From positions 262,910 through 300,054 of the forward strand of contig NZ_BBJP01000023.1 of assembly GCF_000739595.1 (NCBI RefSeq): a stretch of 37,145 nucleotides of DNA, read 5' to 3'. The DNA is from Halorubrum halophilum (GTDB taxonomy: Archaea > Halobacteriota > Halobacteria > Halobacteriales > Haloferacaceae). Shown in pieces: positions 1-21,143 of the stretch. Each line of letters begins with the position of its first letter. The first letter of the stretch is position 1. The position numbers and the translations under genes are program-made. Under the pieces are notes generated by a model that worked only from the letters and a program-made list of their open reading frames with translations, was not told the origin of the DNA and did no database searches.

Positions 1-74
1 CGCCGCTCCGACTCCCTCGCGCGTGCTCCTCCCGGCCGCCAAGGCGGCCGCTCGGAGGCGCGCGCCACCGCACG
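1..74 (+). repeat. partial copy (C) of structured intergenic repeat, cut by window edge
   Basis: This stretch carries the 3' portion of the element seen complete at 19109-19361. It has the shared linker ACTCCCTCGCGCG (11-23), then a hairpin with perfect 8-bp arms at 33-40 and 43-50 around an AA loop, an outer 5-bp pairing CCTCC (28-32) with GGAGG (54-58), and the shared end GCGCGCCACCGC (59-70). The hairpin sequence differs from the other copies but occupies the same place. The rest of the element lies left of the window. Confidence 0.7.
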
Positions 75-12272: not shown

Positions 12273-12523
12273 GCGGTGGCGTGCCGGCGAGCGCCCTGAT
12301 AAGGGCGCGAGCCGACCGCGAGGGAGTCGGCGCGGCGCTTAAAAGCGCCGCGCCGACGAGGCTGGGGAGGCGTGAGGTGCGGGGCGGTGCTGTGCGGGGT
12401 GGGACTCAAAGGGGCAGCCGCGAGGACGACGCTTGGCGATGCAAGCACCGGAAGGAGCGAGTGAAACGAGCGACTGAGGAGCGCAGCGAGCGTGCGGGCT
12501 TCTCGCGACTGGGGCTTTGGAGG
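12273..12523 (-). repeat. structured intergenic repeat copy A (candidate ncRNA)
   Basis: On the minus strand this copy starts at CCTCCAAAGCCCCAG (12523 downward). The long-range stem P1 pairs 12415-12424 with 12502-12511 (nine Watson-Crick pairs and one G-U on this strand). There is a conserved C/T-rich core, then ATCAAAG-type linker complement near 12404-12410. Hairpin P2 is 12326-12357, with 15-bp arms around AA. Hairpin P3 is 12291-12308, with 7-bp arms around a 4-nt loop and an outer 4-bp pairing of 12285-12288 with 12311-12314. The end is CGCCACCGC (12273-12281). Linkers are nearly identical to copy B, while P1, P2 and P3 sequences differ but stay complementary. No credible protein is encoded. 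Confidence 0.85.
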
Positions 12524-12550: not shown

Positions 12551-12557
12551 TTTATAA
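12551..12557 (-). promoter_or_regulatory. TATA-like box upstream of repeat copy A
   Basis: TTATAAA on the minus strand is centred about 31 nt before the conserved CCTCC start of copy A. The same relation is seen for copy B (box 19079-19085) and for A' (box 12605-12613). Confidence 0.55.
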
Positions 12558-12559
12558 GC

Positions 12560-12580
12560 GAGCGACTGGGGCTTTGGAGG
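12560..12580 (-). repeat. duplicated 5' start (A') of the structured repeat
   Basis: CTCCAAAGCCCCAGTCGCTCG on the minus strand repeats the first 20 or so bases of copy A, then stops at the TATA-like box of copy A. It is a truncated second start, itself preceded by a TTTTTAAG box at 12605-12613. Confidence 0.7.
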
Positions 12581-17769: not shown

Positions 17770-18930
17770 ATGGATGACGTGGAACTGTCGGAGGGCGACG
17801 CCCTGCGCCGGATGTACCGGATCACCGCGGAGCAGGAGCGGTCGTTCGAGAGCAAGCTCCCGGATCTCCTCGATCTGGGCTGCGTCTACCTCGGGGTCGA
17901 GACCGGCTTTCTCACCGAGATCGACGACGACACCCAGCAGATCGTGGCCGCGAGCGGCGATCACGAGCTGCTCCAGTCAGGGCAGAGCTGCCCGCTGTCG
18001 AAGGCGTACTGCAGGAAGACGGTCGATGTCGACGGCGCGCTGACCGTCCAGCACGCGCGCGTCGAGGGGTGGGAGGAGGACGCCGCCTACGAGGAGTTCG
18101 GGCTGGAGACGTACATCGGGGCGAAGGTCGTCGTCAACCGCGGGGTGTACGGCACGTTCTGTTTCGCGGACACCGAGGCGCGCGACCGGCCCTTCTCCGA
18201 GGACGAGGAGACGTTCGTCGAGCTGATGGCCCAGTGGGTGAGCTACGAGATCTTCCAGAAGCAGGCCACCGAACGGATACAGAAACAGCGCGACCAGCTG
18301 GAGGAGTTCACCCGCGTCGTCTCCCACGACATCCGGAACCCGCTCGGCATCGTCGACGGCTACCTCGACTTGGCCGAAGAGACGGGCGACCCCGAGCACT
18401 TCGAACGGTGCCGCAACGCGATAGACCGGATGGGGTCGCTGATCGACGACCTGCTGTTTCTCACCCGCGAGGGGCAGACGATCGGGGGCCGCGAGGAGAT
18501 CCGGATCGACGAACTCGTCGAGGAGTGTTGGTCGTTCGTGAACGCGACCCATGCGACCCTCGAAGTCGACACCGACCGCGCCGTCTTGGGCGACTGGAGC
18601 CGGCTCCAGCAGGTGTTCGAGAACCTGTTTCGAAACGCCATCGAACACGGCGGCGAGGACGTGACGATCCGCGTCGGCGACCTGGACGGCGGCGACGGCG
18701 TCTACGTCGAGGACGACGGCGCGGGGATTCCCGAAGACGAGCGCGATCAGGTGTTCGTCGACGGGTTCACCACCGGCGAGTCCGGGACCGGGCTCGGGCT
18801 GACGATCATCCAGCAGGTCGTCTCGGCGCACGGCTGGGAGGTGTCGGTGACCGAGAGCGACGCGGGCGGGGCGCGGTTCGAGATCGGCGGGATGGAGCCG
18901 GTCGAGCCGGGGACGGAGGGTAGCGAGTAG
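17770..18930 (+). CDS. GAF-domain sensor histidine kinase
   Basis: This 386-aa soluble kinase has no membrane segment. Residues about 25-160 form a GAF-like sensor domain, ending RPFSEDEETFVELMAQWVSYEIF. A short coiled coil leads to the dimerisation/phosphoacceptor helix VVSHDIRNPLGIVDGYLD with His186. The ATPase domain follows, with N-box NLFRNAIEHGG, G1 DDGAGIPEDERDQVF and G2 GESGTGLGLTIIQQV. No response regulator is adjacent, which is common for haloarchaeal orphan kinases. The GAF part has three cysteines (about 38, 74 and 81) that might bind a cofactor or sense redox, but this is speculation. Downstream lies the structured repeat copy B. Confidence 0.92.
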   Translation: MDDVELSEGDALRRMYRITAEQERSFESKLPDLLDLGCVYLGVETGFLTEIDDDTQQIVAASGDHELLQSGQSCPLSKAYCRKTVDVDGALTVQHARVEGWEEDAAYEEFGLETYIGAKVVVNRGVYGTFCFADTEARDRPFSEDEETFVELMAQWVSYEIFQKQATERIQKQRDQLEEFTRVVSHDIRNPLGIVDGYLDLAEETGDPEHFERCRNAIDRMGSLIDDLLFLTREGQTIGGREEIRIDELVEECWSFVNATHATLEVDTDRAVLGDWSRLQQVFENLFRNAIEHGGEDVTIRVGDLDGGDGVYVEDDGAGIPEDERDQVFVDGFTTGESGTGLGLTIIQQVVSAHGWEVSVTESDAGGARFEIGGMEPVEPGTEGSE

Positions 18931-19108
18931 TCGAGCGGCTCCGTTTCGATCTCCACCGGGTGAGTATCTATCTCGGTTGCGGTCGATACGGACACGGCGG
19001 CGATCGATCGCGGGAGTAGGTATCGTACGTCGCAAGTGAGATTGGTTATAAGCGATCGAGTGGCGTTGCTGTCGGCTATTTATAAGCGATCGACGACTCT
19101 GTGGTGAA
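18931..19108. other. intergenic region with repeated TTATAAGCG boxes
   Basis: No gene is seen here. TTATAAGCGATCGA occurs at 19046-19059 and again at 19081-19094, and TTTATAAGCGA recurs just past copy B at 19366-19376. The middle one is positioned as the TATA box of repeat copy B. Confidence 0.6.
19079..19085 (+). promoter_or_regulatory. TATA-like box upstream of repeat copy B
   Basis: TTTATAA is centred about 29 nt before the conserved CCTCCAAAG start of copy B (19111), a normal archaeal promoter spacing. Confidence 0.6.
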
Positions 19109-19361
19109 GACCTCCAAAGCCCCAGCCGGTGAGGCGGGCGCACGCTCGTTGCGCTCCTCAGTCGCTCGTTCCACTCGCTCCCTGCGGTGCTTGCGTCGCC
19201 TGCGCCCGCCTCACCGGCTGCCCCTTTGAGTCCTCCCCACCCGCAACCGCACCGCAGCCTCACGCCTCCCCAGCCTCGTCGCTCGCCTCTGGCGAGCGAC
19301 TCCCTCGCGCGGGCGGTTCGCGCCGCGTTGCGGCGCTCACCGGGGCGCGCCACCGCCGCGT
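19109..19361 (+). repeat. structured intergenic repeat copy B (candidate ncRNA)
   Basis: The best-preserved copy runs plus strand. It starts CCTCCAAAGCCC. Stem P1 pairs 19123-19142 perfectly with 19201-19220 (20 bp), and just outside it CAAAG (19115-19119) can pair with CTTTG (19224-19228) in the following linker. The loop of P1 holds a C/T-rich core almost identical to copy A. Hairpin P2 is 19278-19300 (10-bp arms, TCT loop). Linker ACTCCCTCGCGCG leads to hairpin P3 at 19320-19336 (7-bp arms, GTT loop), flanked by a UC/UC internal loop and an outer pairing CGGT/ACCG. The end is GCGCGCCACCGC. Open frames across it are arginine-rich and not protein-like. Confidence 0.88.
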
Positions 19362-19538
19362 TCATTTATAAGCGATTGTCGCTATCGCTCATGTCTTTTT
19401 AAGTACGATCTTGCCACTGACGATCTGCAATACTCACTTTTGCAATCGAGCGGGGAGCAATCCTCAGTAACCGACTGTCGCGGGTGAATCCGACTGAAAA
19501 TAGGATTTCAACGTCGTCGTCGGAGAGAAACGGCGTCG
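19362..19538. other. intergenic region between repeat B and purNH
   Basis: This moderately AT-rich stretch contains TTTATAAGCG (19366-19375) and TTTTTAAG (19395-19402). No gene is recognised. It lies downstream of the purNH stop codon. Confidence 0.5.
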
Positions 19539-21143
19539 TCAGTCGTGCCGGAAACAGCGCGAGCCCGTAAACGCCATCGCCATGTCGTGTTCGTCGGCCG
19601 CGGCGATCACGTCCTCGTCGTTGACGGAGCCGCCGGGCTGGATCACGGCCTCGATGCCGGCCTCGGCCGCCTCCTCGATCGCGTCCGGGAACGGGAAGAA
19701 GGCGTCGGAGGCCATCACCGCGCCCTCGGCGGATTTCCCGTCCGCGTCCTTCTCGGCCTTCATCGCCGCCAGCGTGACGGCGTCGACGCGGGACACCTGC
19801 CCCATCCCGACGCCGACCGTCTCCGTGCCGGTCGCGAAGAGGATGCCGTTCGACTTGACGTGTTTGAGCGTCTTCCACGCGAAGGTCATCGTCTCAAGCT
19901 GCTCGTCGGTGGGCTCGCGCTCGGTGACCACCTCGAGGTCGCTCGCGGCCGGCGACTGGCGGTCCCGCTCCTGCACGAGGCGACCGCCGACGACCGGCTT
20001 CTCCGTGAATTGCTCGGAGAAGCGCTCGTCGCCCTCGCCGAGGGGGCCCACGTCGAGCACGCGGAGGTTCTTCTTCTCCCGGAGCACGTCGAGCGCGCTG
20101 TCGGTGTAGCCGGGCGCGACGACGACCTCCTTGAAGGAGTCGACGACCGCGTCAGCGGTGTCGGCGTCGCACTCGCGGTTCAGCGCGACGATGCCGCCGA
20201 ACGCGGACTTCGCGTCGGTGCGGAGCGCGCGGTCGTACGCGTCCGCGAGCGTGTCGCTCGTCGCGCAGCCGGCCGGGTTCGTGTGCTTGATCACGGCGGC
20301 CGCGGGCTCGTCGAACTCCTTGACGAGGTTCAACGCGGCGTCGGCGTCGTTGTAGTTGTTGTACCCCATCCCCTTCGCACCGGAGTTCAGTTGGGGCGCA
20401 TCGACGACGCTCGCCTCCTCGCAGCCGTCGTCGACGTAGAGCGCGGCATCCTGATGGGGGTTCTCGCCGTACCGCAGCGTGTCGGCGCGCTCCTCGGAGA
20501 CGAACCGTCGCTCGGGGAAGTCGCCGCCTGCGTCGCCGTCGACGGTCACGTTCACGGGGGCGCCGTCGCCGTCGCGCTCGACCGTCACCCGGTCCTCGGC
20601 GAACCACCGCACCGCCCGCGGGTACGCCGTGAACTCGGCGTCGTGAAGCACGCGGTCCTTCAGCGCGTCGGCGTCGTCGCCCTCGTAGACGGGCACCGGC
20701 TCCTGCGTGACGATCGGGCCCGCGTCGACCTCCTCGGTGACGACGTGAACGGTACAGCCGGTGGTGCGGACGCCGGCGTCGAGCACCTGCTCGTGGGCGT
20801 CCGTGCCGGGGAACGCGGGCAAAAGCGACGGGTGGACGTTCAGCGTCGCCGGCGCTGCGTCGAGGAACTCGTCGGTGAGCACGCGCATGTACCCGTCCAG
20901 ACAGACGAGGTCGAAGTCGTACCCGGCCAGTCGGTCGACGATCCGTCGCTCGTGCGACTCGCGCGATTCCCCCTCCTCGCGCTCGACGACCTCGGTCGGG
21001 ATCCGGCGCTCCGTCGCGGCCTCCAGCACGGGCGCCTGTTCGCGGTTGGTCAGGACGACCGACAGCTCCGCGCCGCCCGGCGCGGCGTCGGCGATGTGTC
21101 TGAGGTTCCGTCCCCGGTTGCTCGCGAGTCCGGCGATCTTCAT
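19539..21143 (-). CDS. purNH: fused GAR transformylase (PurN) - AICAR transformylase (PurH C-terminal) protein
   Basis: This 534-aa purine biosynthesis protein joins two folate-dependent formyl transferases. Residues 1-185 are PurN: GLASNRGRNLRHI, then catalytic Asn102 and His104 in LNVHPSLLPAFPG and Asp140 in TEEVDAGPIV. Residues about 205-534 are the AICAR transformylase domain of PurH: LRYGENPHQDAALY, NSGAKGMGYNNYNDADAAL, KHTNPAGCA (catalytic Lys-His), SDAFFPFPDAIEEAAEAGIEAVIQPGGS and the C-terminal GSRCFRH. The usual N-terminal IMP cyclohydrolase domain of PurH is absent, so a separate cyclohydrolase such as archaeal PurO is expected elsewhere. The start is the ATG at 21143 (MKIAGLASN); GGATATACGC (minus strand, 21163-21172) lies about 25 nt upstream. 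It is divergent from purB. Confidence 0.93.
   Translation of the reverse strand: MKIAGLASNRGRNLRHIADAAPGGAELSVVLTNREQAPVLEAATERRIPTEVVEREEGESRESHERRIVDRLAGYDFDLVCLDGYMRVLTDEFLDAAPATLNVHPSLLPAFPGTDAHEQVLDAGVRTTGCTVHVVTEEVDAGPIVTQEPVPVYEGDDADALKDRVLHDAEFTAYPRAVRWFAEDRVTVERDGDGAPVNVTVDGDAGGDFPERRFVSEERADTLRYGENPHQDAALYVDDGCEEASVVDAPQLNSGAKGMGYNNYNDADAALNLVKEFDEPAAAVIKHTNPAGCATSDTLADAYDRALRTDAKSAFGGIVALNRECDADTADAVVDSFKEVVVAPGYTDSALDVLREKKNLRVLDVGPLGEGDERFSEQFTEKPVVGGRLVQERDRQSPAASDLEVVTEREPTDEQLETMTFAWKTLKHVKSNGILFATGTETVGVGMGQVSRVDAVTLAAMKAEKDADGKSAEGAVMASDAFFPFPDAIEEAAEAGIEAVIQPGGSVNDEDVIAAADEHDMAMAFTGSRCFRHD

Follow-up and report, generated by a model that had tools for sequence, protein, structure and literature searches.

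The PATEs of Haloquadratum walsbyi are non-coding, palindromic elements present at 177-194 per genome (PMC3119063). The repeat described here resembles them in being haloarchaeal, non-coding and palindromic, in its similar copy number and in the heterogeneity of its copies (PMC3119063); it is also PATE-like in having hairpins throughout, no gene overlap and a majority of copies without inverted ends. However, PATE ends are related to IS605-type transposons and no such link was found for our repeat, which sets it apart from PATEs by description.

Like the REP/BIME elements of bacteria, the repeat is dispersed, strictly intergenic, palindromic and mosaic, reaches about 100 or more copies per genome and sometimes forms inverted pairs. 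Its unit is about 100-250 nt, whereas that of REP/BIME is 20-40 bp, and it differs further by its elaborate conserved internal loops. The REP/RAYT system has a dedicated Y1 transposase, but no Y1/RAYT transposase was seen to track our repeat. The repeat is therefore filed neither under REP/RAYT, from which unit size and the lack of a tracking Y1 separate it, nor under PATE, since it has no IS605-type ends.

Haloarchaeal MITEs and SMRs are likewise short and transposase-free, and some copies of the repeat have inverted ends. Most do not, however, and neither a target duplication nor a parent transposon was identified. The class I intergenic repeats of halovirus HF2, a virus of Halorubrum, are 56-58 bp long and have TATA promoters (PMC8707807). 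They recall the 57-nt module upstream of type II copies of our repeat, but no sequence match to the repeat was found in 50,697 phage records. Viral contigs gave 16 exact 15-mer matches, none of which matched the covariance model R1 described below, and an 18-mer typical of the window's genus had no match in them. A virus origin was rejected on these grounds.

Copies in the window and across haloarchaea

The window, which is the whole stretch of 37,145 nucleotides from Halorubrum halophilum analysed here, holds copies A and B and also the 3' portion of a further copy, C. In this genus the core is about 250 bp and consists of P1 followed by P2 and P3. As claimed in an earlier note on this DNA, the C-rich linkers of copies A and B are alike, and at both loci three hairpins of differing sequence but internal complementarity occupy matching positions. 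Folding of the C-rich strand gave P1 the same lengths as stated there, 20 bp in copy B and 10 bp in copy A, and the P3 internal loop reported as UC/UC is present as TC/TC in both. The features are as follows.

19111 to 19356, plus strand: core of copy B; C-rich strand 5' to 3' with leader, P1, linker L2, P2, linker L3, P3 and tail; anchors kept in about 140-150 copies
19115 to 19234, minus strand: P1 unit of copy B, G-rich strand match to covariance model R1 (75.3 bits, E 1.8e-13)
19278 to 19300: P2 hairpin of copy B, 10 bp with a TCT loop
19314 to 19342: P3 of copy B, with CGGT/ACCG, the internal loop TC/TC (read as GA/GA on the opposite strand) and GCGCCGC/GCGGCGC
19079 to 19086, plus strand: TATA-like box of copy B, TTTATAAG, lying upstream with respect to the C-rich strand
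19046 to 19052, plus strand: second TATA-like box near copy B, upstream of the C-rich strand
19011 to 19027, plus strand: CGGGAGTAGGTATCGTA, the inverted-repeat end that bounds the larger unit of copy B on the left; it precedes the CTCC anchor by exactly 101 bp, a spacing shared by most type I copies
19426 to 19442, minus strand: decayed right inverted-repeat end of that unit (TGCAATACTCACTTTTG on the plus strand), placed by comparison with the type I consensus and too decayed for the threshold of the inverted-end search
12273 to 12523, minus strand: core of copy A, whose C-rich strand is the minus strand
12401 to 12519, plus strand: P1 unit of copy A, G-rich strand match to R1 (75.1 bits, E 2e-13)
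12326 to 12357: P2 hairpin of copy A, 14-bp arms
12285 to 12314: P3 hairpin of copy A, CGGC/GCCG, TC/TC, GCGCCCT/AGGGCGC
12564 to 12580, minus strand: CCTCCAAAGCCCCAGTC, an extra leader module that precedes copy A by 57 nt
12551 to 12557: TATA-like box TTATAAA, between copy A and its extra leader module
1 to 71, plus strand: 3' part of copy C (locus L084), truncated by the start of the window; its right end is approximate

Both strands of copies A and B folded better than all 200 of 200 dinucleotide shuffles. The z-scores were -6.06 (B) and -3.69 (A) for the C-rich strand and -4.78 (B) and -3.66 (A) for the G-rich strand.

One correction to the earlier account is that copy B sits within a larger unit bounded by inverted repeats. 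Such a unit, about 430 bp long and with GATCGATAGCGGGAGTNNGTNTNGCA as its inverted ends, encloses about one third of the copies in genomes G000 and G014, the limits of the larger units being approximate; most copies in these two genomes are without inverted ends. The type I inverted-repeat sequence is GATCGATAGCGGGAGT. In the larger unit (about 19003-19455 in the window, and type I copies of G000 and G014) two TATA-like boxes lie on each side of the core. All resemble the palindromic TTATAA, so that inward-facing promoter-like sites are found on both strands.

In the 3.68 Mb genome to which the window belongs, anchor CCTCCAAAGCCCCAG had 151 matches when at most 1 mismatch was allowed and anchor GCTGCCCCTTTGAGTCCCACC had 136 when at most 2 were, compared with 0 matches for the reversed-pattern controls of both, which excludes chance for the repeat. 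By the anchor patterns, this genome has roughly 140-150 dispersed intergenic copies and the related genome G014 has 180. In a blastn search that was limited to scoring about 20 candidates per genome, every congeneric genome searched gave close to, or at least, that number. A degenerate pattern was present in 196 of the 292 genomes of the class (54 of 77 genera), at 0 to over 130 matches per genome and with almost no control matches; some genomes of the class hold only one to three copies. R1, the model of P1, had matches in 48 of the 53 class genomes included, and no match was found when about 240 other genomes of the phylum were searched. As far as sampled, the repeat is restricted to this class of haloarchaea.

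The earlier note knew of no named family to which the sequence belongs, and our searches agree. With Rfam 15 the whole window gave only a tRNA elsewhere in it at gathering thresholds, and positions 18900-19540 gave nothing at E<=1; no description of the repeat was found in the open-access literature. The repeat is thus apparently unnamed and undescribed. Its copies number up to about 180 in a genome of 3.7 Mb and have kept one fold across an archaeal class, which makes it a large genome component.

The P1 fold and the folded strand

On the G-rich strand, P1 reads GGGACUGAAAGGGGCC, a variable arm, GACGCAAGCACC...GGAGCGCAGCGAGUC, the complementary arm and GGGGGCUUUC, and the unit is mostly 95-127 nt long. 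Outside the window's genus the repeat is usually a single long P1 hairpin (GAAAGCCCC, arm, loop, arm, GGCCCCTTTCAGTCCCACCC), and some genomes there have two P1 units that are inverted with respect to each other and separated by about 25 nt. The arms were compared in 64 P1 units from outside the genus, with 58 distinct arm pairs. The 13 outer pairs were Watson-Crick in 92.4% of cells, compared with 50.9% when the arms came from different copies, and 697 pairs were observed as against 385±14 after the arms had been permuted among copies.

A G-rich-strand alignment of 28 P1 units contained 29 pairs, 18 of them with double changes. In this alignment 95.8% of cells were paired, 131 cells showed double changes (38±5 in shuffles), and the covariation score was 0.442 compared with 0.043-0.070 in slid versions. 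The claim of a structured intergenic repeat with covariation is thus upheld against both kinds of control. R1, the covariance model made from these 28 units, contains no copy of the window's genus, and it found P1 of both B and A at E about 2e-13, its E-values being rough. When aligned to R1, copies of the window's genus gave the same covariation support, including an A-U to G-C change in the nearly invariant outer stem, in an alignment which was fitted to R1 and so leans towards it.

The internal loops of P1, GAC/GA, AA/GCA and A.A together with tandem GA/GA, are conserved on the G-rich strand across families. The apical part reads GC-GA-xy-NNN-y'x'-GA-GC on that strand, with GC/GC, GT/AC and AC/GT versions. 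Of 99 distinct P3 versions, 80 retain the TC/TC internal loop between stems that vary. Tandem GA/GA can form sheared pairs. At six loci of genome G197 (L284, L288, L295, L299, L303 and L307) the P1 frame holds a second conserved interior, which is unrelated to GACGCAAGCACC and has its own complementary changes.

The earlier note took the C-rich strand as the sense strand. This agrees with the TATA-like box that most copies in the window's genus have 31-38 nt ahead of the leader, since a box in this position would transcribe the C-rich strand; the conserved GAC/GA, GA/GA, AA/GCA and A.A loops, however, lie on the opposite one. No such box before the leader was seen in the other families examined, and TATA boxes were rejected as proof of an RNA gene because they are not conserved outside the genus. 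G-U pairs, said to occur only on the proposed sense strand, do so in copy A, but across the family A.C is commoner there, with G.U opposite. Counted over four data sets, G.U pairs favoured the G-rich strand by 99 to 32 (52 vs 22, 10 vs 1, 14 vs 5 and 23 vs 4). The unpaired linkers have a two-fold bias of the same sense, and the wobble asymmetry has p about 0.05 after allowing for it. In view of this background, the asymmetry was rejected as proof of the strand. The conserved loops, which read as tandem GA/GA on the G-rich strand, suggest, short of proof, that this is the strand that folds, opposite to the one first proposed.

Hairpin exchange and the origin of the repeat

At 18 sites with homologous flanks on both sides, the two species represented by G000 and G014 each have a copy, and its orientation is the same in the two; this sample consists of occupied sites and is not informative on the rate of gain or loss. 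The sequence 80-150 nt downstream of these sites was clearly orthologous (similarity 0.80 vs 0.61), and the linkers persisted despite the differences between hairpins. Similarity of the hairpins at shared sites, compared with random pairs, was 0.71 vs 0.66 for P2 and 0.59 vs 0.63 for P3, and slightly higher than random for P1 (0.75 vs 0.69). Some hairpins were found again in several copies of one genome. In four G000 copies (L062 and three others) the entire P1 hairpin has the opposite orientation to the remainder of the element, an outcome that recombination between the P1 arms would be expected to give. Near-random hairpins at orthologous sites, recurrence of hairpins and inversion of P1 together indicate that hairpins are exchanged as units. 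The covariation therefore overstates the number of independent compensatory substitutions. Selection on an RNA fold, or on the folding of single-stranded DNA in a mobile repeat, had been read from the compensated stems: the strength of the covariation agrees with it, but most changes are exchanges of whole hairpins, which inflate covariation as evidence for RNA. Selection on the fold can still be argued because mismatched loops persist, and arm-to-arm copying alone should remove mismatches. The repeat is in this respect a natural experiment on how a fold survives the exchange of its hairpins, and a caution that covariation in repeats is not proof of RNA function.

Gene positions were predicted by a simple codon-usage caller written for this analysis, and none of the copies tested overlapped a predicted gene. 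In G000 and G014, 81 of 165 copies lay between convergent genes, compared with 69 of 421 background gaps; the preference is absent from the other families (9 of 56 copies). Copy A lies between a convergent aminotransferase gene and minus-strand ORF, and copy B between convergent genes for a histidine kinase and AICARFT/IMPCHase. Because the enrichment belongs to the window's genus and is not class-wide, a general terminator role is unlikely.

Neither a clean empty site nor a target duplication was found at the two sites examined, where the empty sites resemble deletions, and no mobilising enzyme for the repeat was found. Of the 30 TnpB loci of the window's genome, two had a copy nearby, about chance level, and the IS605/TnpB ends at these 30 loci showed no homology to the repeat; an association with such ends was rejected. 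Numbers of Y1 transposases (PF01797) do not follow repeat copy number, genome G056 having 88 pattern matches and no Y1, although Pfam alone cannot separate RAYT from IS200 TnpA. A RAYT-like driver is not supported by these numbers.

We consider it probable, though well short of certain, that the repeat is a non-autonomous, modular, dispersed intergenic repeat of REP/BIME-like kind, under selection for a fold that forms in RNA or in single-stranded DNA, with exchange between copies homogenising it. What selection would keep is a hairpin of the G-rich strand whose loops are non-canonical and rich in purines, and a putative factor would recognise it. Spread of the copies would be a past event, and they would be homogenised through the linkers they have in common, by recombination or gene conversion, with whole hairpins swapped and P1 sometimes inverted; this mechanism is one that we infer. 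The explanation draws on copy number, intergenic placement, class distribution, the conserved fold and the replacement of hairpins at fixed sites, and is also backed by P1 inversions, BIME-like inverted pairs and two unrelated interiors in one P1 frame. Counting against it are the lack of a clean insertion, target duplication, mobilising enzyme or TnpB or Y1 link, and the P1 loops, which are more elaborate than those of REP and would equally suit an RNA. The main rival is a dedicated multicopy noncoding RNA family, with copies that would be RNA genes or UTR elements and a product more likely from the G-rich strand. Strong covariation together with GAC/GA, AA/GCA, A.A and tandem GA/GA loops on that strand fits such a family, as do conservation across the class, including genomes with one to three copies, and the promoter-like boxes that precede the C-rich strand of copies in the window's genus. 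These boxes, however, are on the strand that the loops disfavour and are not conserved outside the genus, the wobble asymmetry is at p about 0.05 after background correction, and hairpins are found swapped or inverted, or with an unrelated interior in their place, which makes the dedicated family rather doubtful. We hold as a tentative possibility that the repeat is a class-wide functional structured RNA family of the G-rich strand, with about 150-180 copies in some genomes and one to three in others, a core of non-canonical loops and exchangeable accessory hairpins. An RNA family, if true, would be the more interesting outcome.

The nearly perfect Watson-Crick stems, which change as units, and the small perfect hairpin cassettes inserted in many copies could also be produced without selection on the fold, if the element were a selfish or neutral repeat whose complementarity arises by template switching or conversion of arms in a palindrome. 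Copying from arm to arm should erase mismatches, but 80 of 99 distinct P3 versions retain TC/TC, and the loops of P1, with their mismatches, are conserved across families; such an origin is unlikely. Less likely still is a MITE or PATE, that is, a shortened transposon whose ends are recognised by a transposase that acts in trans to move it. About a third of G000 and G014 copies do have inverted ends GATCGATAGCGGGAGTNNGTNTNGCA about 430 bp apart, and PATEs of Haloquadratum are non-coding and palindromic at 177-194 per genome (PMC3119063), but the majority of copies have no such ends, no target duplication was seen, the 30 TnpB loci show no link, and G056 combines 88 pattern matches with no Y1 transposase. 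The earlier reading is thus partly supported: the repeat is real, structured and apparently undescribed, with its RNA nature and strand as candidates, and folding of single-stranded DNA in a mobile repeat may account for the structure instead.

Upstream modules, cassettes and flanking sequences

Upstream of copies such as A, which belong to type II, are 57-nt modules in which the leader and a TATA-like box are repeated. A tandem arrangement of leader module and copy at 54-57 nt recurs elsewhere in the genome of the window. The leader of the genus, CACCTCC on the C-rich strand with GGAGGTG in its complement, resembles the 3' end of 16S rRNA (the anti-Shine-Dalgarno sequence), possibly by chance.

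Small perfect hairpin cassettes, for example GGCGGCTTCGCCGCC and GAGGGACCGAAGGTCCCTC, are inserted in the P1 or P3 loops of many copies, among them loci L040, L087, L125, L132, L230 and others. In other families, the low-copy units L348, L351, L352 and L358 are flanked by a different repeated sequence, GGCGAGCGGGGCGTGCCG.
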